Assembly (NCBI RefSeq): GCF_016863115.1
Contig: NZ_BOOG01000012.1
Span: 120,009-184,008, forward strand
Reading direction: 5' to 3'
DNA length: 64,000 nucleotides
From: Sphaerimonospora thailandensis
GTDB taxonomy: Bacteria; Actinomycetota; Actinomycetes; Streptosporangiales; Streptosporangiaceae
Translations under genes and position numbers: made by a program
The notes under the pieces: generated by a model
What the model saw: only the letters and a program-made list of their open reading frames with translations
Told to the model about the DNA's origin: nothing
The model's database searches: none
Shown here: positions 25,644 through 42,143 of the stretch, piece by piece
Position numbering within the stretch: the stretch's first letter is position 1
Layout: each line of letters starts with the position of its first letter

Positions 25644-26550
25644 GGTCCCGACAGCCTACAGCGCACGCATGCCGGAGGGCTTCGACGGCCGCGCGGATGG
25701 CGGGTCGACGGGCCGCGTCGGTCCGCCAGATGGCGTAGATCTGCCGCATGGGCGACGGCTCGATCTCCAGTACGGCGACGCCCGGCGGCAGCGGCCCGCG
25801 CCCCAGTCGGGGGATCAGCGCGCAACCGTGGCCGCCTGCGACGAACGCGAGCTGGGTCGGGTACTCGTCGGCCATGCAGACGATGTGGGGCTCCCTCTCG
25901 GCCGACCGGAGCAGGAACGTCAGGAAGTCGTGGCAGACCGTGCCCGGCGACGAGCTGATCCAGTCGTCCCCGGCCAACTCGGCGATCCGCACCGCGCCCG
26001 AACCGGCCAGCGGGTGGCCGATCGGCACCACGACGTCGGCGACGTCGTCGAGCAGCGTCGCACGCGACAGACCGTCGGGCAGCGCCATCGGACGGTTGAG
26101 CCAGTCCTGCACCACGGCGAGATCGATCTCGCCCCGGGAGACCTCGCGGATCTGCCGCTCCGGCTCGCGCTCGTAGACGAGCAGGTCGAGATCGGGATGA
26201 CGCTCCTTCAGTGTGGACAGCGCACCGGGCAGGATGCCCCGGGCTCCCGTCGGGAAGGCGGCCATCGTCAGCTTGCCGACGACCGTGCCCCGCAGCGCCT
26301 CGAAATCGGCCTCAGCGGTCTCCACCAGGGCGAGGATGCGCTGCGCGTGATCGGCCAGCAGGCCGGCCGCGTCGGTCAGCCGCACCCCGCGTCCACTGCG
26401 CTCGACGAGCACGCTGCCGGTCTCGCGTTCGAGCTTGGCGATCTGCTGGGAGATGGCCGACGGGGTGACCATCAGCGCCTCGGCCGCCGCGCCCACCGAC
26501 CCGTACACCGAGACCGCGTGCAACGCCTTCAGCCGATTCAAATCCAACAT
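25636..26550 (-). CDS. LysR family transcriptional regulator
   Basis: This 304-residue regulator has an N-terminal winged HTH (MLDLNRLKALHAVSVYGSVG, then TPSAISQQIAKLERETG) and a substrate-binding LysR domain with VVVPIGHPLAGSG. The upstream 107 bases include an AT-rich segment (26555-26590), the likely promoter. It runs on the same strand as the histidine phosphatase, with overlapping ends. The effector is unknown. Confidence 0.9.
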   Translation of the reverse strand: MLDLNRLKALHAVSVYGSVGAAAEALMVTPSAISQQIAKLERETGSVLVERSGRGVRLTDAAGLLADHAQRILALVETAEADFEALRGTVVGKLTMAAFPTGARGILPGALSTLKERHPDLDLLVYEREPERQIREVSRGEIDLAVVQDWLNRPMALPDGLSRATLLDDVADVVVPIGHPLAGSGAVRIAELAGDDWISSSPGTVCHDFLTFLLRSAEREPHIVCMADEYPTQLAFVAGGHGCALIPRLGRGPLPPGVAVLEIEPSPMRQIYAIWRTDAARRPAIRAAVEALRHACAVGCRDHE

Positions 26551-26657
26551 GTAAGCCAGACTAAAACCAAATCCCTAAAAAATCTCATCTGCGCTCAATC
26601 GTCATGTCAGGGCTGCATCTATGCAGGTAATGCGGCACTCGGGGCGATAGACGGAGA

Positions 26658-27428
26658 TCAGACTGCGGCGTTCACTAGCTCCATCAGGTGGGAGGGCGAG
26701 CCGGTGCCGGGGATCGGGGCGACATGGTCGCCGAGGGACAGAAGCCATCGCAGGGCAGTGCGGCCTCCATCGGCGGTGAGCGCGCCGGCGTTCAACGGCC
26801 GATAGGCCACGAAGGGGATGCCGCGGTCGCGGCAGTAGCCGACGGCAGGGTCGTCTGGCTCGTCGCGGTTGAGGCAGTTCTGCACTGCGGCGATCGGGAC
26901 GATGCGGGCGGCCTCCTCGATCTGGGCGCATGAGACCTTGGACAGCCCCACCGCCCGAATCTTGCCCTCCTTGTGGAGGTCGGCGAGCTCGCCGACCTGA
27001 TCGGCGAGGGGCACGGCCGGGTCGATGCGGTGCAGGTAGCACAGCCCAATCGTTTCGGTTGCCAGGCGTCGCAGGCTGGCTTCCACCGCGGCGCGCAGGT
27101 AGTCGGGCCGACCGAGCGGACGCCAGATGTTCGGGCCGGGGCGTATCATGCCGACCTTGGTGGCGACAAGCACCTGGTCGGGGTAGGGGTGGAGCGCCGT
27201 GCGGACGAGCTCTTCAACGGTGTGCGGGCCGTAGGCGTCTGCGGTGTCGATGTGGGTGATGCCCGCTTCGATCGCCTGGCGGAGCACGGCGACCGCAGCG
27301 AGCGGGTCGGTGGGGTGGTCCCAGGTGCCGGGGCCGGTCAGGCGCATGGTGCCGAAGCCCAGGCGGGAGACTGGCTTGTCGGCGATGGCGATGGTGCCGC
27401 CAGGTGCGGCCGTAGTTTCGTCATTCAT
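26658..27428 (-). CDS. Aldo/keto reductase, last gene of the nucleotide-modification operon
   Basis: This 256-residue protein is the short NADPH-dependent TIM-barrel form of the family. It has GFGTMRLTG, the catalytic Asp/Tyr in HIDTADAYGPH, the Lys in VATKVGMI, and the His in LCYLHRIDP. The end lists PIPGTGSPSHL, the usual cofactor-binding segment. I chose ATG 27428 (MNDETTAAPG), 5 bases after the exonuclease stop. It may reduce a carbonyl made by the radical SAM or ThyA-like step, but that is inference. Confidence 0.88.
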   Translation of the reverse strand: MNDETTAAPGGTIAIADKPVSRLGFGTMRLTGPGTWDHPTDPLAAVAVLRQAIEAGITHIDTADAYGPHTVEELVRTALHPYPDQVLVATKVGMIRPGPNIWRPLGRPDYLRAAVEASLRRLATETIGLCYLHRIDPAVPLADQVGELADLHKEGKIRAVGLSKVSCAQIEEAARIVPIAAVQNCLNRDEPDDPAVGYCRDRGIPFVAYRPLNAGALTADGGRTALRWLLSLGDHVAPIPGTGSPSHLMELVNAAV

Positions 27429-27433
27429 GAGAA

Positions 27434-28084
27434 TTAAAATCCCAGGGTGAGTTGCTCCTGCGGTCCCGGCGCGACGTTCTCTCCATCCATCGGGACACCG
27501 GCAAGCCGGACGAGTTCGGCCATCGTGGTGTCGCCCCGGCTCGGCAGGACAGCGATCAGCGCGGGTAGCAGTAGCGTCACTGCGACCGTGTCCCATAGCG
27601 CTCGGTGTGGTTGTCCATCCGGGACGAGGGCGTTCACCTGCTCTGTCAGACGGTGTTCGGTTAGCAAGGCGGTGAGGGATTTGCCGGTCCGGTTACCGTG
27701 GACGTAGCGGGCCAGGCGGAGGGTGTCGAGCAGCGCGGCCGGGCGTAAGCGTGGGGAGCGCCGGTGCAGCAGGCGCCAGTCGACCCGTACGTTGTGCCCG
27801 ACGATGATCGCGGCCTGGACGCGGTCCCGTACGGCGGGCTCGACGGCGTTCCACGGCGGGGCTTGGGCGAGGATCTCGTTGGTCAGGCCGGGTGAGGTCC
27901 AGGGGCGGCGCGGGATGCGCCGCCCCGGGTTGACGAGCGAGTGCCACCCCTGGTCGAGGGCGGGACGGCCGACAGCCATGGGGACGAGCGCGATCTCCAG
28001 GATCGCTTCGTCATCGTGGTCTTGGCTGCCGCTGCCCTCCAGGTCGAGCGCGACCATCGGAGTCTGTTCCCACCGCTGCGGCAT
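27434..28084 (-). CDS. DnaQ-like 3'-5' exonuclease (DEDDh)
   Basis: This 216-residue protein contains all DEDDh residues: D14 and E16 in ALDLEGSG, D102 in GHNVRVDWRLL, and H160 and D165 in HRALWDT. This fold degrades single-stranded DNA, RNA or oligonucleotides. It is not a polymerase subunit here, since no clamp-binding motif or polymerase is nearby. It follows the radical SAM gene by 24 bases and precedes the aldo/keto reductase by 5. It might remove modified or unmodified ends, but its substrate is unknown. Confidence 0.85.
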   Translation of the reverse strand: MPQRWEQTPMVALDLEGSGSQDHDDEAILEIALVPMAVGRPALDQGWHSLVNPGRRIPRRPWTSPGLTNEILAQAPPWNAVEPAVRDRVQAAIIVGHNVRVDWRLLHRRSPRLRPAALLDTLRLARYVHGNRTGKSLTALLTEHRLTEQVNALVPDGQPHRALWDTVAVTLLLPALIAVLPSRGDTTMAELVRLAGVPMDGENVAPGPQEQLTLGF

Positions 28085-28108
28085 CGCTCGTCACCTCTTC
28101 AGTCGTGG

Positions 28109-29386
28109 TCAGTCGTCGTCGTGGCGCGCGCTTGCGGCGAGCCGTTCGCGGGCCTGCTCAAGCAGGTCCTGTTCCTCTGGGGTCAGTGTGTACCCTTCCA
28201 GGGCCCGCCCGTGGGCGGAATGGACGTGCGGGTGTTCGACTTCCCAGACCTGGTATCCGAAGTAGTGCTGCAGCGCGTAGCGGCGCTGCTCCCCGAGCTT
28301 GGCGGTCAAGACATGCCCGTCCTCGATGAGGAATGGTGTGTCGGGATCGAAACCGAACATCTCCAGGGCGGTCCGGAACTCGTCGGGGGTTGGCGCTTTC
28401 AGGGCCTGTCGGCACCGTGCGACCTGCTCAGATGGGCAGATGTCGCACAGTTCCGGTACGCCGAGGTGGCCGTTGTAGTCGGGCAACTTCCAGGCGGCGG
28501 TCACCCCGCAACTCGTCTTGCGGTACAGGGGGATGGAGATACCTGAGTCGCGCCAGGCCTGGACAACGCTGGCGTCGAGTTCGCCGGGGAGGACCTTGCG
28601 GCGCTGCCAGTTGTCGGCGTACGGCACCGGCACGCCAAGGTCGCGCAGGTAGGTGGCGTTTTCCTCCTTGTGGTAGTAGCCGGTGAAGACGATCGCGTCG
28701 ACGCCGGTCTCGTCGGCGACCTGGAGAACTCCGGCCATGGTGTCGGGGTCGTCGTTCCACCCGGGGACGATGGGCCTCCAGTACAGGATCACCTTCGTGT
28801 TGCCCCGGTGGGCGGCGGCCGTGCGAATGGAGTCGACGGTGGTGCTGGTCTTGGCGATCGGCTCGACTCGGGCATCGTTGATCCCCGAGTAGGTGAACAG
28901 CAGCGTCGGCCGGATGTACTGCAGTCGGCCGAGCCTGGCCATGTCTTCTTCTCGGACGTGGAAGCGGGTGATGATGAGCACGAGGTTGCTCAGGCCGCGC
29001 CGGTCCAGTTCCTCCAGAACGGCGAAGGTGTGCGGTTTCACCCCGGGCAAGAACGGGTCGGTGGCCTTGTTGAACAGCTGCAGCGGCGTGGTGTGCGGCA
29101 GGAACTCCGGGTGGGCTACGAGCATCTCGACGGCTTCGGGCGTGGTGACGAGCATCTGAGGGACCTTGTCGTCGAAGTTTCCCCAGAAGTGCCGTACGCA
29201 GTAGCCGCAGTCGAGCGGGCAGCCGACGATGTGGTTGAGCGACAGCCCGGACTTGCGGTTGCCGACGATGAGCCGCATGTAGGGGTCGAGGGTGGCCTGC
29301 TGCTCGGCGGGCATGACCTTCAGGTCGGTGGGCCGCAGCCCGGCGCGGTGGATGGTCGGGGGCGGGAGAACAGGTTCCGCGGTCAT
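28109..29386 (-). CDS. Radical SAM enzyme with CxxxCxxC and a C-terminal Cys cluster
   Basis: This 425-residue protein has the radical SAM cluster motif CPLDCGYC (C56, C60, C63) near the N-terminus and a TIM-barrel-like region to ~residue 250. Four more cysteines at 293, 314, 317 and 325 (TSCG, ELCDIC, ARC) could bind an auxiliary Fe-S cluster. The CxxxCxxC spacing and early position recall the spore-photoproduct-lyase-like group, but I cannot assign a reaction. The ATG overlaps the NDK-like stop (ATGA), so it belongs to the modification operon. Confidence 0.85.
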   Translation of the reverse strand: MTAEPVLPPPTIHRAGLRPTDLKVMPAEQQATLDPYMRLIVGNRKSGLSLNHIVGCPLDCGYCVRHFWGNFDDKVPQMLVTTPEAVEMLVAHPEFLPHTTPLQLFNKATDPFLPGVKPHTFAVLEELDRRGLSNLVLIITRFHVREEDMARLGRLQYIRPTLLFTYSGINDARVEPIAKTSTTVDSIRTAAAHRGNTKVILYWRPIVPGWNDDPDTMAGVLQVADETGVDAIVFTGYYHKEENATYLRDLGVPVPYADNWQRRKVLPGELDASVVQAWRDSGISIPLYRKTSCGVTAAWKLPDYNGHLGVPELCDICPSEQVARCRQALKAPTPDEFRTALEMFGFDPDTPFLIEDGHVLTAKLGEQRRYALQHYFGYQVWEVEHPHVHSAHGRALEGYTLTPEEQDLLEQARERLAASARHDDD

Positions 29387-29913
29387 TGTTCCTCCGTGAG
29401 TAGATGGATCCCGGTGGGGCCGTACCAGATGCCGATGTCGCGTGCGACGCAGCCGGGGCGGTCGCTGGTGTGGATCAGGTTGTCGATCAGCTGGCCGCGG
29501 GCGCGGGCCTGCCGCAGGCTGTCGATGCCGAACCGGCCACGGATGGTGCCGGGGTCGGCGGTGGAGGGGTCGGTCGGTCCGATCAGGGTCCGCAGCCGGG
29601 CGGGCGCGTTGTCGCCGTTGGCGATGGCCACGACCACTTGCTGGCCGACATACAGCCGGCGCAGGTCGGTGGCGACGTCGAAGCCGAACTCGGCCGACAC
29701 CTGCGGGGCGAGCATGTCGTCGTAGTGGGCCATGACCTGCTGCTCAGTGGCAGCGATCAGGCGGGGGTGGGATACCTGGACATGCTCGGCCAGGCAGGCC
29801 AGGACCTGATCGACCAGGCCCCGGAGGACGCAGTCGGGCTTGAGCAGGATGGCCGACCAGCGGGTCCAGTCGATGCCGCCAGGGGCCCGCCGGATGCCGG
29901 GCTGGGCGATCAT
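29383..29913 (-). CDS. Nucleoside-diphosphate-kinase-like protein
   Basis: This 176-residue protein aligns by eye with NDK. It has ILLKPD (K25), HYDDM (Y64), ARLRTLIGPTDPS (R108), PGTIRGRFG (R125), N145 and H148 in NLIHTSD. These match the ATP-binding and phosphohistidine residues of E. coli NDK (K11, Y51, R87, R104, N114, H117 in its own numbering). It is ~30 residues longer, mainly N-terminal and before N145. It is unlikely to be the housekeeping gene, given its operon. It is coupled by ATGA overlaps on both sides. Confidence 0.8.
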   Translation of the reverse strand: MIAQPGIRRAPGGIDWTRWSAILLKPDCVLRGLVDQVLACLAEHVQVSHPRLIAATEQQVMAHYDDMLAPQVSAEFGFDVATDLRRLYVGQQVVVAIANGDNAPARLRTLIGPTDPSTADPGTIRGRFGIDSLRQARARGQLIDNLIHTSDRPGCVARDIGIWYGPTGIHLLTEEQ

Positions 29914-30956
29914 GGCGTGACCGCCTGCACGGGTGCGGCATTCGGGACGGCCGGGATGTACAGGGGCGGGATCCGGCCGGGCCACCGCTGGGCGAGCAGC
30001 CACCGGTACAACGCGGGGAGGGTGTCGAGGACGCCGCCGCTGACCGTGCCGTCCTGGTGAACGATCTGGCGGTGCACCTCGAACAGGGCCAGGACGTGCT
30101 GCCAGTACGGGTCGAGCATGGCGACGTCGGCGGCCTTCGGGTTCAGCGGGCTGTCGTTGGTCCGCAGGCGCTGCTCCCATTCAAGGACGGTGGCCAGCGT
30201 GTCGGGGCCGGTAGGCGGCATGGTCGGCGGGTCGAGTGCGGGGGCGGCAGTCTCGGCGAGGGTGGCCTCGGCCCGGGGAAGGTCGGCGACGGCCAGGTGC
30301 ATGGACGACACGAGGTGGGTGTAGGTGCCGAGGGGGACGCCGAGGTGCTGGGCAGTGTACTCGGCGATCACGGTGAAGGAGAACACGTCGCAGGCCAGGC
30401 CGATCCAGGCGTCGTTGCCGCGCATGAACGCCACGGTGTGCAGCGCGCCGTCGCGGAGGAGGAACTGCAGGGCGAGGGTGCAGGCGACGTCGGGATTGCC
30501 GGGGTCGGCCAGTTCGGTGGGCCTCATGATGACCATGGCCGCGCGTTTGCTGCCGGCATCGCGGCGCAGCAGGTCCACCACATGATCCCATTGGGAGGCG
30601 CCGGGTGGGGTGAACAGGCGCGGCCCGTAGGCAGTGCCGGTCAGGTGCTGCCCGTCGGCCGACAGTGCCCGCAGCCGGGGCGCGTAGTAGGCGATCATAT
30701 CGAGGTCGTCGCGGCCGGCCAGATACCACAGCGCCTCGGCGTAGTTGAACACGATGTTCGGACGGCGGGCCACCAGGTAGGGGATGCGATGGCGGGGGTC
30801 GGTGAGGGTGAAGCCGGCGCCGAGGATCTCGCTGAAGGTTTTCCCTCGCGCGCTGGCCGTGTAGTTCGGCTGGGTGAGAATCCGGTGCAGCACCGCCCGG
30901 TAGGCGTCGTGGAACGTCGCGAAGGTAGGCAGGCCGACGGGGGCAGGGGGTGTCAC
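29910..30956 (-). CDS. Thymidylate-synthase-fold enzyme, predicted (d)CMP hydroxymethylase-like
   Basis: This 348-residue protein shares the ThyA landmarks: NYAEALWYLAGRDD, GTAYGPRLF, SKRAAMVIMRP, the catalytic Cys C159 in DVACTLALQFLL, R179, and IGLACDVFSF. The base-reading Asn of ThyA (E. coli N177, 31 residues after C146) is Asp here (D190, also 31 residues after C159). That Asn-to-Asp change is known from dCMP/CMP hydroxymethylases such as T4 gp42. ThyA Y209 is replaced by Ala. The start GTG overlaps the glycosyltransferase stop (GTGA). Confidence 0.8.
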   Translation of the reverse strand: MTPPAPVGLPTFATFHDAYRAVLHRILTQPNYTASARGKTFSEILGAGFTLTDPRHRIPYLVARRPNIVFNYAEALWYLAGRDDLDMIAYYAPRLRALSADGQHLTGTAYGPRLFTPPGASQWDHVVDLLRRDAGSKRAAMVIMRPTELADPGNPDVACTLALQFLLRDGALHTVAFMRGNDAWIGLACDVFSFTVIAEYTAQHLGVPLGTYTHLVSSMHLAVADLPRAEATLAETAAPALDPPTMPPTGPDTLATVLEWEQRLRTNDSPLNPKAADVAMLDPYWQHVLALFEVHRQIVHQDGTVSGGVLDTLPALYRWLLAQRWPGRIPPLYIPAVPNAAPVQAVTP

Positions 30957-31990
30957 CGGTACGCCTTTCTCGTGGAGTGGGTCAGGGTGGCCATGAGCCG
31001 TTCGAGCTCGGCGACCTGGCGGGAGTGGCGGAACAGGTTGAGCCGGTTGAGACAGGCGGCGATCAGGTCGGCGTGCTCGGGCGTGCCCTGGATGCCACGG
31101 AGCCAGGCCAGGCGCTCCAGGACCTCGTCGCCATCGGCGACATGCAACTCGGTGGGAGTGATCTGGTCGGCGCTGAGGAGGGTGGTCGGGGTCAGGGGCA
31201 AGCACCCGGCCAGCACCGCTTCGGGGAACCGCTGGGACACAGATCCGGTCGCGGAGTACCGGTCGGGCATGAGCAGGACCGTGGCCAGCGCGGTGCTGTA
31301 GATGGGGCTGACCTCGGTGAACGGGGCACGGCCGGTGAAGTTCACATGCGGCCATGGTTCGATGCGGGTCCACTTGCCGGCCACCCGATGGGGAACGCGG
31401 GCGGCGGGCGGCGCGAAGAACCGGTCGAACGCCTCATCGCGGTCGTACTGGTTGCCGACGTAGGCCAGATCCAACGGCCGGTCCGCGACGGCGAGCCGGG
31501 TAGGGTCGGCGGCCTCCAGCAGGTCGTCGGGGACCATCGCCGCCAACGTCGGGGCCGGGGGTGACGGCCGAAGGGCGGGATCGCAGACGATGACGTGCGG
31601 GGTTCCACGCAGCAGGTCGTCGGAGGGGAGTTGCCGGTCGGTGTCCCACAACACCGTCGGGGTGCCCCGATCGGTGTAATGGGCGAGCAGGTCGGCCTGG
31701 CGGTGCAGGTCGCAGGTGTGCCCGGTCGTGCCGCACGGAGTGGTGTTACGGCCGGGCAGCGGCCACCGCCACTCGCAGAACAGCACATCCAGCGGGGGAA
31801 GCCCAGTGTCCCAGACGTAGGGCTGGGCTGTGCCGGCCTCCAGGCGGTCGCGATCCTGCTGCAGCAGGATCACCTCGTGGCCGTGGCCCAGAAGGGTGTC
31901 GATGATGCCCTGACGCCAGAACCGGCCGCCGTCAGGGGTGTCCACGATGCCGGGGCCGATGAAGCCCCAGAAGCTGTAACCGATCCTCAT
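30953..31990 (-). CDS. Glycosyltransferase (CgeB/GT4-like), first gene of the operon
   Basis: This 345-residue protein has a Rossmann-like N-terminus (MRIGYSFWGFIGPGIVDTPD, later HGHEVILLQQ). The C-terminal sugar-nucleotide-binding pattern SVSQRFPEAVLAGCLPLTP resembles CgeB-type and GT-B glycosyltransferases. ATG 31990 has a very strong ribosome site (AAGGAGGAGA, 7 bases upstream). An in-frame extension to GTG 32134 also reads as protein-like and would couple it to the HATPase gene. A role in glycosylating the modified nucleotide is inferred from context only. Confidence 0.72.
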   Translation of the reverse strand: MRIGYSFWGFIGPGIVDTPDGGRFWRQGIIDTLLGHGHEVILLQQDRDRLEAGTAQPYVWDTGLPPLDVLFCEWRWPLPGRNTTPCGTTGHTCDLHRQADLLAHYTDRGTPTVLWDTDRQLPSDDLLRGTPHVIVCDPALRPSPPAPTLAAMVPDDLLEAADPTRLAVADRPLDLAYVGNQYDRDEAFDRFFAPPAARVPHRVAGKWTRIEPWPHVNFTGRAPFTEVSPIYSTALATVLLMPDRYSATGSVSQRFPEAVLAGCLPLTPTTLLSADQITPTELHVADGDEVLERLAWLRGIQGTPEHADLIAACLNRLNLFRHSRQVAELERLMATLTHSTRKAYR

Positions 31991-32140
31991 GCCACGATCT
32001 CCTCCTTCGGGGATGTGACCGACCCGGGTGTATTCCGGGCGCGTACTGGATGCGCATCGCACCGCGCCATGGCGCCGATGCCAGTTCGCCCACTCGTGCA
32101 GTAGGTCCACGTACCGCACGGCGGTCTCTGGCACCCGTGC

Positions 32141-32677
32141 TCAGGGCGATGAGAACAGGGAGACCTGGGGTCGGAAAGGCGGGGTCGATACCTCGAACCA
32201 GACACCGGTGCCCCAGCGGCCTGTGCCGTACAGCCGAACCGTCCGAGCCCCGCACCGTCCCCCGGTATAGGCCACGACGATTCGCAGGCCTCGCTCACTG
32301 TCGGTCAGCAGGTGGCCGCCGTCGGAGCTGCCAAGAGGGCGATCGAGCAAACGGTCGACCAGGGCTGCGCCGTTTCCGGAGACGGCCACCTCAACGTGAA
32401 CGGGCAGACCGGCCTCGTACAGAATTCGCAGCTCATAGGGGCCGGGTGCATGCCTGATGGCGTTGGTCGCCAGCTCAGAGATCACTAGTTCCAGCTCATC
32501 GACCACCTCAGAATCGATGGGAATGCCGGACAGTCGCTCCCGCAGGAGGAGCCTGGCTCGGCGAGGTGCGTCACGAGGAGGCAAGCACCATACGGACGTC
32601 CGGTACCAGTTGCTGCGAAGCGATCGATATGTGGCCTGAGCCAGTGGTTCGGCAGGTGGAGCATGCGTGGGAAGCAT
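32141..32677 (-). CDS. HATPase_c ATP-binding protein (anti-sigma-factor kinase type)
   Basis: This protein of about 178 residues is a single GHKL ATPase domain. It has the N-box ELVISELATNAIRHAPGPYE and the G2-like box DSERGLRIVVAYTGG. Such stand-alone domains resemble RsbW/SpoIIAB anti-sigma kinases, which are very abundant in actinomycetes, often beside XRE regulators. ATG 32677 has AGGAG six bases upstream; the frame extends to 32692. It lies upstream of the modification operon and is divergent from the XRE-TPR gene. Confidence 0.85.
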   Translation of the reverse strand: MLPTHAPPAEPLAQATYRSLRSNWYRTSVWCLPPRDAPRRARLLLRERLSGIPIDSEVVDELELVISELATNAIRHAPGPYELRILYEAGLPVHVEVAVSGNGAALVDRLLDRPLGSSDGGHLLTDSERGLRIVVAYTGGRCGARTVRLYGTGRWGTGVWFEVSTPPFRPQVSLFSSP

Positions 32678-32918
32678 CGCCACTCCTGTCACAGAGAGCT
32701 ATCAGGGACTGCACTAAGTGAACCCTGTGTCGCTCCCGATAGTCACCCCGGTCCCAGACATGGTTTCCATGCACGCCTCCCAGCCTCTGACCTGCGAATT
32801 CGCAACAGAAGACGATGGACCTATGCCGCCGATACGGTCGCTGTCCGATTTGTGCTGTTGCCGATCACGGCCATCAGGGCAACCCTGGCCACCAGAAGCC
32901 TCACACGAGGGAGCCTTG

Positions 32919-34418
32919 ATGAGCGGATGGAGCAAGCGAGACGTCAATCGTCTTCGATCACGGATGACCCAGCAGGGCCGGAGCGTGGAAGAGATCGCCG
33001 AGGAGATCCGGCACCTGTGCGGTTGCTCCCGGCTGGCTGCCTTCCGCATGGCGCACGGGCTCAGCCAGCCTGAGGTGGTCGACCGGTACCGGCAGGACGC
33101 CCCGGCATCGGTCATCGATCAGCCGCTGCTGTCGCGGCTGGAGATGTTCCCCGCCGTCGGATCACGATCACCGCAGGCGACTCAGATCATCGCCCTGGCC
33201 GGCGTCTACGGGACCACGCCGCTACGCCTGCTGGATCCCCAGGCGCTGGACCGGATGGACGCCCAGGAACGCGCCGTCCTGATGCGCTGCAACGCCGCCT
33301 TCGCCCCGGCCGTACCGGTTCCGGCCAGTGAGACAGCCGGTGAGACAGCTTCACCTGCGACATCCCGGTCACGAGAAAGCCTGATGCCCGGGAGCATAGA
33401 AAGAGAGGTTGAGATGGCCGCACGCAGAGCGCTGCGATTCGCCGTCATGGTCGAGGGCAGCAACGTCGGACCCGAGACCCTGGATCAGCTCCATGACGAG
33501 GTGGCCCGCCTCGCACTGGCCTATCAGCAGCAGCCACTCCCCATCCTGCTGGGGGAACTGATCGACTTGCAGGACGTGTCCTTCCGCCTGATCGAGGGCC
33601 GCCAGCGGCCCGCCGAGACCGCGGAGATGTACCTGCTCACCGGCGTCATCTGCGGCATGCTCGCCAAGGCCAGCCACGACCTGGGTGAACCGCATTCGGC
33701 GATGACTCAGGCGCGCACCGCCTTCGTGTGCGCGGAAAACGCCGGCCACGACGGCCTGCGCGCCTGGACCCGCGGCCTACAATCGATGATCGCGTACTGG
33801 GCGGGCTGGCCGAACGAGGCCGCTCGCTATGCGCAATCCGGAGCCGAGCCGGCCACCCGGACGCGGGGAACCGCGGCAGTGTGGCTCCCCGCCCAGGAGG
33901 CCCGAGTGTGGGCCACCCTCGGAGACGAGATCCGCGCATTGGAGGCGATCACTCGCGCGACCGATGCCCGCGACCAGGTCGAGGCCGACGACCTGGACGC
34001 CATCGGCGGCATCATGACCTTCCCCAGACCGCGTCAGCTGTACTACGCCGCCGATACTCACGTGTGGCTGCCCGGCAACGAAGACCGAGCTGACCGCTTC
34101 GCCGCTGAAGCTATCACCGCGTACGGCGAGGCCGACCCCGCGGACCGCTCCTTCAGCGACGAAGCCGGAGCCCGGGCCGACCAGGCACTGGCCCGGGTCA
34201 ACCTCGGCGACGTCGACGGTGCTGTCGAAGCTCTCCGCCCTGTCCTCGATCTACCCTCCGATCAGCGGATCGGCGGCATCGTCTCCAGCACCATGCGGGT
34301 CCACACCGCACTGCGCATGCCCCAGTACCGAAACGCCGCAGCCGCACGCGACCTGCAACGAGAAATCGAGTTCTACAGCCAGACGCCCGCAGCGGCGGCG
34401 CTACCCCGAAGTCGTTAG
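32919..34418 (+). CDS. XRE-type HTH regulator with tetratricopeptide-like region
   Basis: This 499-residue protein has an N-terminal helix-turn-helix region (residues ~16-95, GRSVEEIAEEIRHLCGCSRL, AAFRMAHGLSQPEVVDRY). A long alpha-helical C-terminal half contains TPR-like Ala/Leu repeats (AKASHDLGEPHSAMTQARTA). I chose ATG 32919 because GAGGGAG precedes it; the frame stays open to 32718 without protein-like sequence. It is divergent from the HATPase gene across a 241-base gap, so it may control both itself and the operon. Confidence 0.82.
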   Translation: MSGWSKRDVNRLRSRMTQQGRSVEEIAEEIRHLCGCSRLAAFRMAHGLSQPEVVDRYRQDAPASVIDQPLLSRLEMFPAVGSRSPQATQIIALAGVYGTTPLRLLDPQALDRMDAQERAVLMRCNAAFAPAVPVPASETAGETASPATSRSRESLMPGSIEREVEMAARRALRFAVMVEGSNVGPETLDQLHDEVARLALAYQQQPLPILLGELIDLQDVSFRLIEGRQRPAETAEMYLLTGVICGMLAKASHDLGEPHSAMTQARTAFVCAENAGHDGLRAWTRGLQSMIAYWAGWPNEAARYAQSGAEPATRTRGTAAVWLPAQEARVWATLGDEIRALEAITRATDARDQVEADDLDAIGGIMTFPRPRQLYYAADTHVWLPGNEDRADRFAAEAITAYGEADPADRSFSDEAGARADQALARVNLGDVDGAVEALRPVLDLPSDQRIGGIVSSTMRVHTALRMPQYRNAAAARDLQREIEFYSQTPAAAALPRSR

Positions 34419-34427
34419 TCTCGCCGC

Positions 34428-35006
34428 ATGTACCCGGTCACGCTCACCTCCTCAACCGTCAGCCTGCGCGAGTTCGCCGCCCCTGACGACGTGGACGCCG
34501 TATTGGCCATCTACGGCGACCCACGTGTTACCGAGCACCTGAGCTTCGAGCCACGCGACCGGACTCAGGTAGAAGCCACCCTCACAAGCGCGACCAAGGC
34601 CGCCAGGGGCGAACCGCGGACCGAGTACTCCTTGGCCGCGGTCCGTCCCACGGGAGATGTCATCGCCTTCGCCCGCCTGGCCATCGACACCCAGCATCCC
34701 GGCCAGAACAGCGGGCAGATCGGCTTCGCGCTCCGCGCCGACCAGTGGGAGCAGGGACTCGGCAGCCAGGTGGTGGAACTCCTGCTGCGGCTTGGCTTCG
34801 ACGAACTCGGCCTGCACCGCATCTGGGGCGCCCGCAGCCCCGACAACCACGCCTCCAGACGGCTGATGCGAAAGCTCGGCATGATCGAGGAAGGCCGCAT
34901 CCGTGACCATCTCCTCGTACGAGGCCGGTGGCGGGACTCCATCGTCCACTCGATCCTCGAACACGAATGGCAGCCAAGCCCCTCCCCTGCTTCATCTGAA
35001 CGATAG
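34428..35006 (+). CDS. GNAT-family N-acetyltransferase (RimJ/RimL type)
   Basis: This 192-residue protein starts VTLTSSTVSLREFAAPDDVD. It has the acetyl-CoA-binding segment LRADQWEQGLGSQVVELLLR and the C-terminal NHASRRLMRKLGMIEEGR, all typical of RimJ/RimL-like acetyltransferases. Targets can be protein N-termini, antibiotics or metabolites, and none can be chosen here. It follows the XRE-TPR gene by 9 bases, so they are likely co-transcribed. Confidence 0.85.
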   Translation: MYPVTLTSSTVSLREFAAPDDVDAVLAIYGDPRVTEHLSFEPRDRTQVEATLTSATKAARGEPRTEYSLAAVRPTGDVIAFARLAIDTQHPGQNSGQIGFALRADQWEQGLGSQVVELLLRLGFDELGLHRIWGARSPDNHASRRLMRKLGMIEEGRIRDHLLVRGRWRDSIVHSILEHEWQPSPSPASSER

Positions 35007-35147
35007 GACAACGAGGACGAGAAGCGAGTGAGTGAAATCAGGATAGACGACACCGTTGACGCCCGGCGCGCGTCAACGCCCGCATGGTGTTCCCCGCAGC
35101 CCAGTGCCTGGGGTTCATGGGTGATGACAGGCAGCGCGAAAACGAAG

Positions 35148-35795
35148 ATGAGCCAGATAATCATGCATGGCGACGACAACGCCACTACGGTGCACGACGT
35201 GAGCAGCGCGCTCGAGTACTGGCCTGCCCCGCCGCCCTGGGGATGGACCGCGGAAGATCTCGATCACCTGCCCCCGGAAGGTCCCAACGGGGAGCCCGAC
35301 TTCTTCGAACACGTCGAACTGATCGATGGAGCACTTGTCCTCAGGGCACCCCAGCGGCGGTTCCACCAGCGGCTCATCCGCGGACTGACCGCGTGCCTCG
35401 ACTCGCAGGCCCCGGCGCACCTCGCGCCGGTGCACCGTATGGACGTCAAGCTCGGGCACCGGACACGCCCGTGTCCCGATGTAGCGGTCATCGACGCCGA
35501 GGCCGCGGCGGACATGGCCCGCACCTTCTATGAGACGCGGGAGGTCCATCTCGTGATCGAGATCGTCTCTCCGGAGTCGGTGGAGCGCGACCGCAAGCTC
35601 AAGCCGCTGCGGTACGCGGAGGCGGGCATTCCCCACTTCTGGCGGGTGGAGGAGAACGAGGGCAGACCCGTCGTCTACGTATACGAGCGCGACCCGGCCA
35701 CCGGTTCGTACGGCCTCACCGGCATCCACCACGGCCTGCTGACCGTGTCCGTACCCTTCCAGATCGAGATCGACCTCGACGCACTGGTCAAGTAG
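35148..35795 (+). CDS. Uma2 family (DUF820, PD-(D/E)XK-like) protein
   Basis: This protein of about 215 residues shows the Uma2 pattern: VELIDGALVLRAPQRRFHQR, RPCPDVAVIDAE, and VHLVIEIVSPESVERDRKLKPLRYAEAG. The Asp and the Glu-x-Val-Ser pattern are those of the restriction-endonuclease-like fold. These proteins are common in actinobacteria and of largely unknown function. The frame is open from GTG 35028 (21 bases after the GNAT stop), but that 40-codon extension lacks family similarity and typical codon use. Confidence 0.75.
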   Translation: MSQIIMHGDDNATTVHDVSSALEYWPAPPPWGWTAEDLDHLPPEGPNGEPDFFEHVELIDGALVLRAPQRRFHQRLIRGLTACLDSQAPAHLAPVHRMDVKLGHRTRPCPDVAVIDAEAAADMARTFYETREVHLVIEIVSPESVERDRKLKPLRYAEAGIPHFWRVEENEGRPVVYVYERDPATGSYGLTGIHHGLLTVSVPFQIEIDLDALVK

Positions 35796-35901
35796 TGGCC
35801 CGTCTATCGGGTTGGTAGACCCTGTCTCAGGCCTTCTGGCGCATGATATCTACGGGGGGAGACAGGAAAGATGTACGGTGAGCTCAAGAAAGGGGCTTGC
35901 C

Positions 35902-37140
35902 ATGCTTCTCAACTTCCGATTGGCGAATGTTCTCTCATTCCGAGACGACCAGCGACTGTCACTGATCGCGACGGAGTTGAACGATGGCTCTGCTCGACCG
36001 CTACCCATCCGGGAGGGGAGACGTCCGGTGTCGGTCGTCCCGGTGGTGGCCATCTATGGAGCCAACGCCTCCGGCAAGACCAACACGCTGGCCGGACTAC
36101 GTCTGATGCGTCAGGCTGTGCTGAGGTCCGTCGCGTGGATCAATGAGGAGTCCCCCCTCCGGCGCGTCCCTTTCGCCCTCGATCCGAAATGCGCCACGGA
36201 GTCATCCTTCTACGAGATAGACCTGGAACTCGGCGGAATCCGCTACACGTATGGGTTCGAGATCGATGACGAGCGTGTACAGGCCGAGTGGTTGCACGCC
36301 TACCCGAAGGGCCGACGCCAGGTCTGGTTCGACCGCGACGGAGATGAGATCCACTTTGCCGGGGAAGGCTTGCGTGGCGAGAAGCAGGACCTGGTGCGCA
36401 AGACCCGGCCTGACGCCCTGTTTCTCGCAGTTGCCGCGGAATGGAACAACGAGCAGTTGCTACCCGTGTTCGAGTGGTTTCGCGACAATGTCTGGTTGAT
36501 CAGCCCGGAACAGGATCTACCGGGGCGTCAGAGGTTCACCCAGGAGAGAGCGACGCGTGACGGACAGTTCAGAGATCAGGTGAGCCGCCTCATGGCGGTC
36601 GCCGATCTGGGGATCGTCGGATTCGATCTGAAGTCACTGCGGCGCGGAGAGCTACGCTTCCTTCACCGGGCCGAGGAGCACACCGCGTCTCTCGAATTCG
36701 CACACGAATCGATGGGGACGCGGTCCTGGTTCGCGATGGTCGGGCCGCTGCTCGATGCATTCCAGCAAGGCGCCCTGGTCCTTGTGGACGAACTGGATGC
36801 CAGCCTCCACCCGACGATGGCCGCCGAGGTGATCCGCATGTTCGAAGATCCCGAGGTCAATGCCCGTGGCGCCCAGATGGTCTTCACGACTCATGACGCA
36901 TCCCTGTTGCGTCCCCTGGCCGGCGGCGAGCGGATCCTGGATCGAGACACGGTTTGGATGACCGAGAAGGACTTTCGAGGGTCCACTCAGCTTTACCCCC
37001 TGTCGAGTCTGCGACCGCCCCCGCGCCCGAACGAAAACCTCGAACGGGGCTGGCTTCTCGGCCGCTTCGGTGGTTCCCCCCGCATCGCACCCGGCGAACT
37101 CGTGCGGGAGATCGGAGAGGCGCTCGCGTGGGTGAAGTGA
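35902..37140 (+). CDS. AAA ATPase (AAA_15/AAA_21, ABC-ATPase-like)
   Basis: This 412-residue protein has Walker A in IYGANASGKTNTL (residues 52-60), Walker B in ALVLVDELDASLHP (near 291), and the switch-region MVFTTHDASLL. The pattern fits single-protein ABC-like ATPases related to the abortive-infection and RloA/OLD group. Many of these act in phage defence with a partner; none is adjacent. An AAAGGGG ribosome site precedes ATG 35902. Upstream, 35796-35901 holds no gene. The stop lies 3 bases from the convergent hemL end. Confidence 0.82.
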   Translation: MLLNFRLANVLSFRDDQRLSLIATELNDGSARPLPIREGRRPVSVVPVVAIYGANASGKTNTLAGLRLMRQAVLRSVAWINEESPLRRVPFALDPKCATESSFYEIDLELGGIRYTYGFEIDDERVQAEWLHAYPKGRRQVWFDRDGDEIHFAGEGLRGEKQDLVRKTRPDALFLAVAAEWNNEQLLPVFEWFRDNVWLISPEQDLPGRQRFTQERATRDGQFRDQVSRLMAVADLGIVGFDLKSLRRGELRFLHRAEEHTASLEFAHESMGTRSWFAMVGPLLDAFQQGALVLVDELDASLHPTMAAEVIRMFEDPEVNARGAQMVFTTHDASLLRPLAGGERILDRDTVWMTEKDFRGSTQLYPLSSLRPPPRPNENLERGWLLGRFGGSPRIAPGELVREIGEALAWVK

Positions 37141-37143
37141 GCT

Positions 37144-38433: not shown

Positions 38434-38614
38434 GCCCCCAGCCTACGGATGCCCCTCCCACCCTTGCCAAGCACCCCGATCACGCCGTCATGATCACAAG
38501 CCGCACGACCCACTCCGCACCGAACCCCGCTCTCAATTAAATCACCATCGGGAGAGATATGACCATATTGTCCGAATTGATCGATCGGATTTCTGAAAGA
38601 CCTTCACTCAACGC

Positions 38615-38644
38615 TTGACATATCGGGATTTATCCGAATAGCTT
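38615..38644 (+). promoter_or_regulatory. Candidate promoter of the SARP cassette
   Basis: A perfect -35 box TTGACA (38615-38620) is followed by an 18-base spacer and TAGCTT (38639-38644), which resembles the actinobacterial -10 pattern. The spacer holds an imperfect inverted repeat (TCGGGATTTATCCGA). The transcript would start ~55 bases before ATG 38705. The 271 bases between hemL and the SARP gene hold no gene and are unusually AT-rich. Confidence 0.6.
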
Positions 38645-38704
38645 AGCCGCGTCGAGCTATGACCTAGGGCATGAGCGGCTGGCGAATACGGGGGATCGGG
38701 CGCA

Positions 38705-39523
38705 ATGCTTGTTCGCTTTCGGCTGTCCGGACGGGTTCTTGTGGAGACCGACGGAGACGAACAGCCTATTTCCAAAGCTCCACTACGCGGGCTCTTCGCA
38801 GTGCTCCTACTCAACGCTGGAAGAACGGTATCGGCGATCGATCTCCTCGAGAATCTGTGGGAGAACCCAGGTAGATCCGCTCCCGCTAACCTCCGCAACT
38901 ACGTCGCACGCCTTCGGGCCGAACTTGTGGCCATCGATCCGGTCCTGGCCAAAAGACTCGTCACTCTTCGCGCGGGAGTCGGAAGCTCGGGAGGTTACTA
39001 TTACGATGCCGACCCGGGGGAAGTCGATGTGCACCGCTTCCAGCAACTCACCGTGGCAGGCGGCGCCCTCTTGGCGAAACGCGACTACGGTCAGGCAGAG
39101 AGCATCCTTCTGCAAGCCTTGAGTCTCTGGCGTGGCCCCGCCGGTCAGGACTGTACCGCCGCTCCACAGCTCCGCGAGCGGTTAGCTGGTATGGCCGAGC
39201 ACTACATGACGGCCCAGAGTCAGTTAATCTCTGCCCGACTAGCTCTTGGTCATGATCGGGTGCTTATCCCGGAGATTCAGCAGCATCTTGCCAGAGACGC
39301 CTTCCGGGAAGACATCTGGTGCCAGTTGATTTGCGCTACCTATCTCGGCGGAAGCACAAAAGACTCTCTCGATCTCGTCGGCCAGGCGCGACGCCTGATT
39401 ATCGATGAGTTGGGCGTCGAGCCCTCCGATGCGCTGGGGCGATTACAGCATGCGATACTCGAGCGACGAGATGATGTGATCCGATTTTGGTGCAACTCGG
39501 CTGAGCCTCACGTTCGGCACTGA
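38705..39523 (+). CDS. SARP/AfsR-family regulator with BTAD domain
   Basis: This 272-residue protein has an N-terminal OmpR-like winged helix (residues ~1-90, VLLLNAGRTVSAIDLLENLW) and a BTAD helical domain to ~245 (GEVDVHRFQQLTVAGGALLA). This layout defines SARP activators of specialised-metabolite clusters. It contains three in-frame TTA codons (39182, 39224, 39443), rare in GC-rich actinomycetes and suggesting bldA-type control. It heads a four-gene plus-strand cassette. Confidence 0.88.
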   Translation: MLVRFRLSGRVLVETDGDEQPISKAPLRGLFAVLLLNAGRTVSAIDLLENLWENPGRSAPANLRNYVARLRAELVAIDPVLAKRLVTLRAGVGSSGGYYYDADPGEVDVHRFQQLTVAGGALLAKRDYGQAESILLQALSLWRGPAGQDCTAAPQLRERLAGMAEHYMTAQSQLISARLALGHDRVLIPEIQQHLARDAFREDIWCQLICATYLGGSTKDSLDLVGQARRLIIDELGVEPSDALGRLQHAILERRDDVIRFWCNSAEPHVRH

Positions 39524-39565
39524 TCGTCGCGGTTGCTCGCTTACTTCTTGCTGCCGTGGTCGTTG

Positions 39566-39895
39566 ATGACCGCACCGCCGCTCCTAAACGGAGATACCAG
39601 GGCCCTTGAGGTCATCGCCGTTCGCGAGCTGCTGAAACAACTGGATTTGGCCGACGCGATCCTGGCCCTGTCGGCCCCGTCCTACCAGTGGTTTCCACAC
39701 ATCAGCCAGATCTGGCTGATCGAACCGATACTCCACCACTCCGCAACCGACCTCATGGTGATGCACGAGATATGCAATCAGAACGCACCCACATGGTTCG
39801 ATCATCTTGTAGGTCAAGGCGATCGCTTTGACGGAGAACGGGCAAGTTTCCTCGACCATATTCCGCTTGCCCGCCACAACCAAGTGGAAGGGTAA
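39566..39895 (+). CDS. Hypothetical small protein of the SARP cassette
   Basis: This protein of about 109 residues begins MTAPPLLNGDTRALEVIAVR and is mostly helical, with a His- and Asp-rich centre (HHSATDLMVMHEICNQNAPT). No membrane helix, signal peptide or recognised family is visible. The frame can start at TTG 39533. It ends 6 bases before the C39-like gene, so it is translated with the cassette. Function is unknown. Confidence 0.5.
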   Translation: MTAPPLLNGDTRALEVIAVRELLKQLDLADAILALSAPSYQWFPHISQIWLIEPILHHSATDLMVMHEICNQNAPTWFDHLVGQGDRFDGERASFLDHIPLARHNQVEG

Positions 39896-39901
39896 CAGAG
39901 C

Positions 39902-40840
39902 ATGCACAAAAGGCCAATGGCTCTGGCCACCGCAGCGGCACTTGCCGTGACAGTTCTCTCACCGACCGTCGCACTCGCCAGCACCAGCGACCCCGAGTCA
40001 GTCACCCCAGACGGTGAGATCATCAATGTCGACCGTAACCAGGACAGGCCGACGAACGGAATCTCTGGAAACTGGACCGGCAGCAGCGTCCCCTCGGCTG
40101 AGACTCCCATCGTGCCGGACACCCAGCAGGCGCGCGACAAGATGGCGCTGACCATGGCATGGGAGAAGGCAGTTAAGGGAGAGATTCCGGCCAGCGACTA
40201 CCTGGCAGCGGAACAGAAGTACCACACGTCTTACGACTTGCCGTTGCCGACCAGAACCCTGTCCAACGACGTCTCCGCTCTGGCCGCCCCCTCCAGCAGA
40301 ACCCTGTCCCTGACCCATGCCCCGCAGATCAACGGCTATTTCTGTGGGCCCGCCACCGGTACCATGATGATCAAGATGGCGGACGGCGGAATCCGGAGCA
40401 AGGCCACCGGTGAGTCGTTCGGCCAGACCAATCTGGGCAATGCCTCACACATGCGGACCTCGATCAACAAGGTCACCGACTGGGGTTCGAAACTCTTCGT
40501 CACAGGGATCAACAAGTGGCGCGGCACCAATTACTATGTGCAGGTGAACTCCCCCAGCCTGTCGGTATTCAAGGCTGCAATCAAGAACAGCATCGGCTCC
40601 AACGGCATGCCGCTTGCCGCCGACACCGTCGAGTTCCAGGGTGGCGCCCACTACAACAACCACCCTAACAGGACTATCGGGCACTGGATCACCGCCTACG
40701 GCTACACCGGGAACGGCGACACCGTCAAGTGGGCCGATCCGTCGACCAACCTCTGGAGTTCGAATGGCGTCAAGGCCACTTTCACCTACAGTGCCAGTGG
40801 CTTCGCTCAGTTCCTCAAGAGCAACGGGATAGCCTACTAA
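39902..40840 (+). CDS. Secreted C39-like cysteine peptidase
   Basis: This 312-residue protein has a Sec signal (residues ~1-27, MALATAAALAVTVLSPTVALAS) and a C39_2-like domain. The likely triad is C148 in GYFCGPATGTMM, H261 in TIGHWITAYGY and D279 in VKWADPSTN. C39_2 proteins process secreted peptides or cleave cell-surface targets. It sits between the small protein and the lipoprotein, with gaps of 6 and 1 bases. Substrate is unknown, though a cassette product is possible. Confidence 0.78.
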   Translation: MHKRPMALATAAALAVTVLSPTVALASTSDPESVTPDGEIINVDRNQDRPTNGISGNWTGSSVPSAETPIVPDTQQARDKMALTMAWEKAVKGEIPASDYLAAEQKYHTSYDLPLPTRTLSNDVSALAAPSSRTLSLTHAPQINGYFCGPATGTMMIKMADGGIRSKATGESFGQTNLGNASHMRTSINKVTDWGSKLFVTGINKWRGTNYYVQVNSPSLSVFKAAIKNSIGSNGMPLAADTVEFQGGAHYNNHPNRTIGHWITAYGYTGNGDTVKWADPSTNLWSSNGVKATFTYSASGFAQFLKSNGIAY

Positions 40841-40841
40841 G

Positions 40842-42122: not shown

Positions 42123-42143
42123 CGGGCTGACACCCGGCAATAC

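Follow-up and report, generated by a model that had tools for sequence, protein, structure and literature searches.

A recurrent hydroxymethylase, kinase, radical SAM and exonuclease cassette in actinobacteria and its possible role in modified cytidine nucleotide synthesis

Introduction

Several described systems handle pyrimidine nucleotides with enzymes of the kinds considered here. The closest to a single enzyme of our locus is MilA, the CMP 5-hydroxymethylase of mildiomycin biosynthesis, which reads cytosine through Asp186 (PMC5175136); the mildiomycin pathway also has MilB, whereas the operon described below lacks MilB and instead pairs its hydroxymethylase with a nucleoside-diphosphate-kinase-like protein (NDK), a radical SAM enzyme (RS) and an exonuclease (EXO). 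The hydroxymethyl-C pathway of phage T4 shares with the operon a hydroxymethylase, an NDK and, by prediction, a glycosyltransferase of the BGT-like GT-B kind, while the operon differs in its ribonucleotide-type residues, its location in a chromosomal island and the presence of RS, EXO and an aldo/keto reductase (AKR). The antiviral viperins, which make ddhCTP, resemble it in joining a radical SAM enzyme to a kinase and to a cytidine triphosphate, the latter proposed in our case. Viperin's ddhCMP is removed from RNA by a viral 3'-5' exonuclease (PMC9415739).

Likeness at the level of gene content, as opposed to RS sequence comparison, extends to the 4'-thiothymidine genes thmABC and to albomycin AbmM, where passages of PMC12691670 likewise describe a radical SAM enzyme, a kinase and self-resistance at the nucleotide level; unlike our cassette, thmABC as presented there has no hydroxymethylase, NDK or exonuclease. 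The anti-phage systems found with DefensePredictor also use nucleotide-modifying genes, one of them a thymidylate synthase, and excerpts of that report count thymidylate synthase and 5-hydroxymethyluracil kinase among the domains newly validated in such systems; its main text is without the terms 'radical SAM', 'photolyase' and 'exonuclease', unlike the cassette (PMC13092281). Other radical SAM contexts appear in parts of PMC10853773 and PMC7159879.

A six-gene operon in an acquired island

The window, a stretch of 64,000 nucleotides from Sphaerimonospora thailandensis, contains all six open reading frames of the minus-strand operon that the original prediction had described, in the order given there. 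Their starts were picked from overlaps and ribosome-binding sites:

31990-30953, minus strand: GT, 345 aa, putative GT-B glycosyltransferase; predicted acceptor, a 5-hydroxymethyl group
30956-29910, minus strand: HM, 348 aa, MilA-family cytidylate 5-hydroxymethylase (ThyA fold); its GTG overlaps the GT stop
29913-29383, minus strand: NDK, 176 aa, nucleoside-diphosphate-kinase-like; ATGA overlap; Pfam NDK 3.7e-19
29386-28109, minus strand: RS, 425 aa, radical SAM enzyme; ATGA overlap
28084-27434, minus strand: EXO, 216 aa, DEDDh 3'-5' exonuclease; 24-nt gap to RS; Pfam RNase_T 4.7e-10
27428-26658, minus strand: AKR, 256 aa, aldo/keto reductase; 5-nt gap to EXO; Pfam Aldo_ket_red 6.5e-52

The Pfam matches of GT (Glyco_trans_1_2, E 0.0043) and of RS (Radical_SAM, E 0.033) fall short of the cut-offs, and the two assignments rest on motifs, structural models and conservation.

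The operon lies in an 8.5-kb acquired island that carries its own regulators and an acetyltransferase:

26604-35141, strand not assigned: acquired island of 8,538 bp that a genome of the same genus lacks
32141-32692, minus strand: HATPase, anti-sigma-type ATPase fold, upstream of the operon; HATPase_c_2 5.4e-7
32718-34418, plus strand: divergent HTH/TPR regulator, NsdA-like; NCBIfam NF053720, 91 bits (cut-off 75); true start probably downstream of 32718
34428-35006, plus strand: GNAT acetyltransferase; Pfam 1.3e-22

At the empty site of the same-genus genome (L103), positions 5014 and 5066 match window positions 26603 and 35142, and HM was not found in that genome at E<=1e-50. GC content is 67.9% in the island and 70.9% in the two flanking stretches, and no attachment repeats stood out at the island ends. 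The accessory genes have counterparts beside other cassettes: a 44% relative of the HATPase lies upstream of HM in L018 and L060, while in L120 a 40% relative of the HTH/TPR regulator is divergent from the cassette and adjoined by a 51% relative of the GNAT gene. HM itself is patchy, occurring in 15 of 200 sampled genomes of the host's family and 6 of 394 of the class (the host's own genome being counted in each).

HM resembles a CMP hydroxymethylase

Alignment of HM to MilA (PDB 5JNH, 5B6D; E 1e-91) shows homology over residues 10-329, next to a Pfam TS match of 8e-12, and places E74, K137, C159, G180, D190 and H220 at the informative positions. The catalytic pair is present (C159 = MilA Cys155, E74 = MilA Glu68) and D190 coincides with the cytosine-reading Asp186, which bears out the earlier identification of a ThyA-fold cytidylate hydroxymethylase with the key Asp. 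Among 48 rows of a residue table (from which HMs under 230 aa, the copies L001, L044 and L045, and HMs that fall outside the main cluster, L035, L047, L048, L054 and L055 among them, were omitted), this Asp and the whole K/D/C/E/H signature are kept in 40 of 40 RS-linked rows. Source annotations name HM relatives 'thymidylate synthase'.

MilA and HM have in common the catalytic Glu and Cys, the Asp, Lys133 and His216. At the sites that set ribose preference, Lys133 corresponds to K137 (Lys in 40/40) and Ala176 to G180 (Gly in 28, Ala in 12), and these residues favour the ribonucleotide CMP over dCMP as the predicted substrate. The two enzymes differ at Tyr218, which holds the ribose 2'-OH in MilA and is A222 in HM; the position is Asn, Gly or Ala in 41 of 41 RS-linked rows including L031, and Tyr in 6 of 7 rows without RS. 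Owing to this loss, CMP itself may not be the HM substrate. No MilB-type N-glycosidase (PF05014) was matched anywhere in the host genome.

In NDK, residues K25, Y64, R108, R125 and N145 and the phospho-His H148 are kept in 38 of 38 rows, in line with the kinase originally proposed; a second, stronger NDK match lies elsewhere in the genome, on contig C20. EXO has the catalytic set D14, E16, D102, H160 and D165, with D102 replaced by Glu in 3 of 41 rows, and its profile matches a PolC-type exonuclease in the PDB at E 1e-27. For GT a GT-B fold is predicted, and T4 5hmC-DNA beta-glucosyltransferase shares first place among its VIA matches with other entries. In T4 DNA beta-glucosyltransferase (GT63) the catalytic residue is Asp100. 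A weak profile match points toward the same T4 enzyme, and a D100A entry is also among the listed structure matches, while PDB searches with the single GT or RS sequence gave nothing useful. The fold and weak profile match of GT point to the T4 parallel drawn in the original prediction, and since the HM residues favour CMP over dCMP, what is shared with T4 is likely the chemistry and probably not the target.

The cassette recurs in actinobacteria

A search for the gene set in other genomes, which the original prediction had called for, found NDK, RS and EXO adjoining HM in 40 of 52 HM-bearing loci examined, loci that are not independent (L005 and L007, for instance, are nearly identical). The order HM-NDK-RS-EXO on a single strand is kept in all 40 of these core loci, and this recurrence, order and strand rule out a chance run of genes. 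With starts taken automatically from a simple gene caller (which missed the RS of L031, found by tblastn), 4-nt overlaps occur at 25 of 36 HM>NDK and 26 of 35 NDK>RS junctions, and gene fusions join HM to NDK (P0078) and NDK to RS (P0162). AKR is present in 16/40 core loci, GT was not seen in 18/40, and an AAA gene (Pfam AAA_28) is present in 10/40. The fixed actinobacterial core is HM-NDK-RS-EXO, with GT and AKR as optional members. As the original prediction had supposed, no described system with the exact set emerged from PADLOC or from a literature search outside bioRxiv that included few subscription papers.

Pairwise distances of RS and EXO correlate with rho 0.77, second only to HM-GT and uncorrected for host phylogeny. 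Their subtypes are not always matched: in L002, RS is 79% but EXO 32% identical to the window's copies.

A radical SAM core without the hydroxymethylase

RS carries the CxxxCxxC motif (C56/C60/C63) and four further invariant cysteines, C293/C314/C317/C325, predicted to form a second Fe-S site; two distant RS sequences in the alignment are annotated with late starts. Its predicted fold is nearest spore photoproduct lyase, tied with PFL activase and with viperin lower, a ranking that excludes nothing. Compared with SplB, RS has an extra C-terminal part containing C293, C314, C317 and C325, and no spore context. The RS profile gave chance-like rows only against the PDB, and RS matched no PADLOC model, viperin included, at E<=1. 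The RS substrate could be a nucleic acid.

RS genes occur in three phyla (Actinomycetota, Pseudomonadota and Cyanobacteriota), where plasmids or chromosomes carry them, and cassette relatives are found also on Streptomyces and alphaproteobacterial plasmids. Nine plasmid loci without HM were examined: eight have RS-EXO-AAA and the Nostoc locus has RS-AAA. The deeper cross-phylum core is RS with EXO and AAA, without HM, and RS need not work with 5-hmC. As a thymidylate kinase, AAA received weak rows only (E 0.03-0.08), mixed with unrelated ones, and L129 encodes a SAMHD1-like HD protein.

In five of the nine HM-free plasmid loci a named anti-phage or modification gene lies within 7 kb (dGTPase and TIR; ABC-3C; N-6 DNA methylase; DncV/patatin/ThiF; SduA and ABC-3C), while near the other four named defence genes were absent. 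Plasmids are often defence-rich; a small control of four 45-kb stretches from four such plasmids, with 157 features, held a single gene of this sort, for an AbiEi antitoxin domain. The actinobacterial cassette, by comparison, stands outside clear defence islands. From 231 listed neighbours, 206 were scanned with Pfam (100 and 106) and the second 106 also with PADLOC, which gave few hits; regulators of the development or secondary-metabolism type are abundant among these neighbours. NUDIX proteins were found in 9 of the 106 and were not among the 25 commonest families listed for the other 100. The original gene set, then, consists of six real genes, but the optional status of GT and AKR, the HM-free RS-EXO-AAA core, the island and the defence neighbours had been missed.

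A proposed pathway and its alternatives

Our preferred reading, with a probability of roughly 0.45, treats the operon as the actinobacterial version of an HM-NDK-RS-EXO cassette that is carried by plasmids and islands and is predicted to make a modified 5-hydroxymethyl-CTP, likely an antiviral or antimetabolite nucleotide. Judged from family and residues, HM would use methylene-THF to turn CMP into 5-hydroxymethyl-CMP. The diphosphate may come from a CMP kinase of the host or from the kinase-like AAA protein found in some sister cassettes, and NDK, its active site intact, would raise it to the triphosphate. RS might then perform radical chemistry on sugar or base, perhaps with a second Fe-S cluster, GT would place a sugar on the 5-CH2OH, and AKR may add a redox tailoring step. 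A triphosphate-level product is suggested by an NDK besides the genome's other one, by AAA in 10/40 core loci and by the NUDIX neighbours. For such a modified-CTP system a defensive role is likely, in which EXO would either protect the producer by removing the analogue from host 3' ends or act as a nucleic-acid effector. Several observations weigh against this reading: the loss of Tyr218 in HM, the lack of a visible GT in 18/40 cassettes, an RS fold nearer to spore photoproduct lyase than to viperin, the HM-free loci, the mismatched RS and EXO subtypes of L002, the position of actinobacterial cassettes outside clear defence islands among many regulators of the development or secondary-metabolism type, and the four plasmid loci in which named defence genes are missing.

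A bolder version, which we consider rather doubtful, holds that RS-EXO-AAA is a cross-phylum immune module, unrelated to viperin, that makes a chain-poisoning nucleotide, and that actinobacteria added HM, NDK and a T4-like GT to obtain a glucosylated 5-hydroxymethyl-CTP weapon, with EXO as the antidote proofreading host nucleic acids. Were the antiviral reading to hold, radical SAM chemistry would have, next to viperin, a second way of making antiviral nucleotides, one that combines a hydroxymethylase of secondary metabolism with a phage-like glucosyltransferase and an exonuclease that proofreads; the system would also supply new nucleotide analogues and offer a natural case of producer self-protection by exonuclease.

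Somewhat unlikely, in our judgement, is a small set of biosynthetic genes for a 5-hydroxymethylcytidine nucleoside antibiotic that is secreted, following the logic of mildiomycin or bacimethrin, with EXO, NUDIX or MazG-like proteins for self-resistance. MilA is a nucleoside-antibiotic enzyme (PMC5175136), resistance to 4'-thiothymidine runs through a triphosphatase according to passages of PMC12691670, HTH/TPR, DUF5753 and HATPase proteins are among the neighbours, and L040 combines HM and GT of the cassette kind with carbamoyltransferase and sugar genes. However, PF05014 is missing from the genome, the 25 commonest families listed for each neighbour half include no exporter save AA_permease_2 (2/100), a producer NDK seems to us unusual for a secreted nucleoside, and in other phyla the RS-EXO-AAA core has defence genes as neighbours. 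Even if the product were a secreted nucleoside, HM-NDK-RS-EXO would be a biosynthetic unit for which the literature and PADLOC searches found no description.

Incorporation of 5-hydroxymethyl-C into RNA or DNA, to be glucosylated by GT and altered by RS, is improbable: the modelled likeness of GT to T4 DNA beta-glucosyltransferase and of the RS fold to spore photoproduct lyase, a DNA enzyme, would suit it, as would an NDK feeding a polymerase, but the residues that select for ribose (Lys, and Gly or Ala) argue for CMP, the operon has no polymerase, methylase or restriction partner, and 18/40 cassettes show no GT. Still less do we expect RS and EXO to be a nucleic-acid-targeting effector, in which RS damages or recognises a foreign or hypermodified target, EXO degrades it, and HM, NDK and GT supply a host-protecting mark. 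The pair persists without HM, its distance correlation is exceeded by HM-GT alone and EXO is DnaQ/PolC-like; against this, the AAA partner and the SAMHD1-like protein of L129 point to nucleotides, and no specificity subunit was recognised. Ordinary pyrimidine metabolism, with a spare thymidylate synthase and NDK, would fit the annotation of HM relatives, yet has next to no probability: Asp instead of Asn at the uracil-reading position, the presence of ThyX and the genome's second NDK led us to reject housekeeping thymidylate synthesis, and HM is a patchy island gene.

Carriage on contigs called viral

At E<=1e-10, RS was found in none of 50,697 phage records, and a lytic-phage cassette is accordingly not supported. 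Nine contigs called viral by IMG/VR hold RS, and the cassette may be carried by prophage-like elements. Seven of these contigs (L114, L115 and L118-L122) have HM, NDK, RS and EXO; L116 and L117 have RS, EXO and AAA, without HM. Among the copies, L044 is the isolate locus L021, and L045 is identical to L037 letter for letter where compared.

The operon belongs to a conserved, mobile cassette

The gene number, strand and order of the original prediction were borne out: six genes form one operon. Gene starts were picked by overlaps and ribosome-binding sites, and the longest open reading frames of HM, NDK, GT and AKR extend farther upstream than the starts used here.

31990 to 26658, minus strand, six-gene operon, in the order:
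GT, minus strand, glycosyltransferase of predicted GT-B fold
HM, minus strand, MilA-family cytidylate 5-hydroxymethylase; GTG start at 30956, within the 3' end of GT
NDK, minus strand, nucleoside-diphosphate-kinase-like protein; ATG start within an ATGA overlap
RS, minus strand, radical SAM enzyme, predicted to carry two Fe-S clusters; ATG start within an ATGA overlap
EXO, minus strand, DEDDh 3'-5' exonuclease, 24 nt downstream of RS
AKR, minus strand, aldo/keto reductase, 5 nt downstream of EXO

Comparison loci came from one scan of named genomes (42), one viral-contig scan (6) and, for the remainder, plasmid searches; the tally of 52 HM loci leaves out the window's own genome as well as two viral contigs that duplicate other loci. 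NDK, RS and EXO accompany HM in 40 of these (36 genomes, 1 viral contig and 3 plasmids), always on a single strand and with the same gene order; NDK and RS are present in 41. Optional genes among the 40 are GT (22), AKR (16), the kinase-like partner AAA (10) and a related NUDIX gene (3). The 12 loci outside this core are L011 (where the contig stops after RS), L024, L030, L038, L040, L042, L047-L050, L054 and L055. A methyltransferase and a nucleoside 2-deoxyribosyltransferase adjoin HM in L050 and L054, the gene company of bacimethrin-type pathways.

Pairwise distances correlate in all ten pairs of HM, NDK, RS, EXO and GT (rho 0.46 to 0.81; HM-GT 0.81, RS-EXO 0.77, HM-NDK 0.69), with 0 of 999 permutations as high for each pair. 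HM occurs in 15 of 200 genomes of a family-level sample and in 6 of 394 of a class-level sample, own genome included in both; NDK and RS stand beside it in 14 of the 16 outside family-level places fetched (the exceptions being L069 and L071) and in 4 of 5 outside class-level loci. At E<=1e-30, RS was detected in 1 of 396 genomes of the phylum, the window's own. The system is a conserved, mobile cassette, of which no earlier description was found in the literature searched, in agreement with the original remark that no described system with this exact set was known.

Several variants were also observed. Five streptomycete-type cassettes (L118, L120, L121, L122 and L051) show two tandem matches to the NDK stretch. 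Catenuloplanes japonicus (L025, L027) and Actinoallomurus iriomotensis (L004, L008) both have the cassette in duplicate, with the copies on separate contigs, and protein P0273, from a Pseudonocardiaceae MAG, joins a GT of the window's clade to an extra C-terminal P-loop part, kinase-like as judged by eye.

HM appears to have an altered sugar pocket

HM matches the CMP 5-hydroxymethylase MilA (PDB 5jnh, 5b6d) over residues 10-329 at E 1e-91, far above its best thymidylate synthase match (E 4e-12). In alignment, using the published numbering (PMC5175136), MilA Glu68, Lys133, Cys155, Asp186 and His216 correspond to HM E74, K137, C159, D190 and H220, while Ala176 is G180 and Tyr218, described there as holding the 2'-OH of CMP, is A222. 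The originally proposed synthesis, phosphorylation and glycosylation of a modified cytidine-type nucleotide is partly supported, by a cytidylate hydroxymethylase (MilA match, D190) and an NDK that keeps its catalytic residues; glycosylation and the identity of the product are proposals.

The E, K, C, D and H residues are retained in all 40 RS-linked HM rows, window included, in which the Ala176 position is G (28) or A (12) and the Tyr218 position is N in 31, G in 7 and A in 2. Eight rows were counted as RS-less, one of which (L031) has an RS missed by the gene caller; in the other seven the Tyr218 position is Tyr (6) or Ile (1), and Arg replaces Lys in 3. In the HM tree, RS-linked rows require 2 label changes versus a shuffled mean of 6.6 (0 of 500 shuffles as low), with L040_2 the sole intruder and branch support of 93/95, not starred. 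From the tree and residue counts, the cassette HMs seem to form a single lineage whose sugar pocket has changed. The enzyme is predicted to use a ribonucleotide, though one whose sugar may already be altered.

A related core without HM lies near defence genes on some plasmids

A plasmid search with RS gave 32 records, and a second query gave 25; among the 20 of the 32 that were listed, identity to RS was 43-53% in alphaproteobacteria, Nocardia and Nostoc. We read nine plasmid loci lacking annotated HM or NDK, and tblastn found neither gene in the first eight. RS is followed by AAA in all nine, with EXO between them in eight (the exception being Nostoc), an HD protein after AAA in four and AKR in two. 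The one HD protein searched, from L129, is a relative of the SAMHD1 and EF1143-type phosphohydrolases. Five of the nine loci have named genes for anti-phage defence or modification no more than 7 kb away.

Table. Named anti-phage or modification genes within 7 kb of HM-free plasmid loci
Locus 1 of 5: anti-phage dGTPase and TIR
Locus 2 of 5: ABC-3C
Locus 3 of 5: N-6 DNA methylase
Locus 4 of 5: DncV/patatin/ThiF
Locus 5 of 5: SduA and ABC-3C

The other four had no such named gene within that distance; their neighbours included nucleases, helicases or toxin-antitoxin genes, or no gene of these kinds. Four 45-kb control stretches from four of the same plasmids (157 features) held one comparable gene, encoding an AbiEi antitoxin domain. 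The four-gene RS-EXO-AAA-HD sets of rhizobia and Labrenzia (L126, L127, L129 and L135), which lie near defence genes, are a candidate anti-phage system in their own right; Sinorhizobium meliloti M162 carries such a set. Around actinobacterial cassettes the defence signal is weak: a scan of 106 neighbouring proteins matched one Lamassu-type protein, one CRISPR I-U protein and a few candidates.

The cassette lies in a genomic island

In the same-genus genome L103, the match to the window ends at 26603 and restarts at 35142, with 51 bp between. Absent as one block is therefore 26604-35141, comprising the six genes, a HATPase, an HTH/TPR regulator and a GNAT protein; 35779-37120 and 38449-42143 are likewise absent. 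TlpA, PGM and hemL genes adjoin in several relatives, and a LysR gene lies in between in others. The hemL-PGM interval (25644-37143 and 38449-42143) looks like a hotspot. The AAA_21 gene (35812-37140) and the BTAD regulator/C39-like block are also missing from the same-genus genome.

In the metagenomic locus L120, genes related to the window's HTH gene at 40% and to its GNAT gene at 51% are divergent from the HM-NDK-RS-EXO-AAA-AKR genes of that locus, and in 30 of 40 RS-cluster loci the fetched stretch contains an HTH regulator from one of four recurring clusters. The regulators may therefore belong to a wider unit.

Proposed product

The presence of NDK in the 40 core cassettes and of AAA and NUDIX/MazG partners in some, together with the failure to find MilB in the genome or any exporter in the most frequent families of neighbouring genes, argues for a triphosphate used within the cell. 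In viperin, a radical SAM enzyme acts on cytidine triphosphate, with a kinase adjoining. An exonuclease has been described that cuts viperin's ddhCMP out of RNA (PMC9415739). We therefore favor a modified 5-hmCTP as the cassette product: RS would alter 5-hmCTP, GT, where present, would glycosylate it, and EXO could serve as antidote or effector. Against this reading, the alphaproteobacterial version lacks HM, so the shared RS chemistry may be independent of 5-hmC, and the regulators in actinobacteria would also suit secondary metabolism.

A secreted nucleoside is a serious alternative, strengthened by L040, in which a carbamoyltransferase accompanies HM and GT. Besides two HMs, one of which has R/S/Y, residues of the dCMP type, this Amycolatopsis palatopharyngis locus (L040:3961-15013) encodes an epimerase, an O-carbamoyltransferase and a GT from the same clade as that of the window; NDK and RS were not found in it. 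The carbamoyltransferase shares a Pfam family with an enzyme shown to carbamoylate 5hmC in DNA, RNA and 5hmCTP (PMC8670742), and L040 is possibly a second 5hmC pathway. Two Amycolatopsis loci encode related long proteins divergently beside HM (L040:679-3768 and L043:6743-9946); the L040 protein is 1029 aa long and matches OMPdecase and HEAT.
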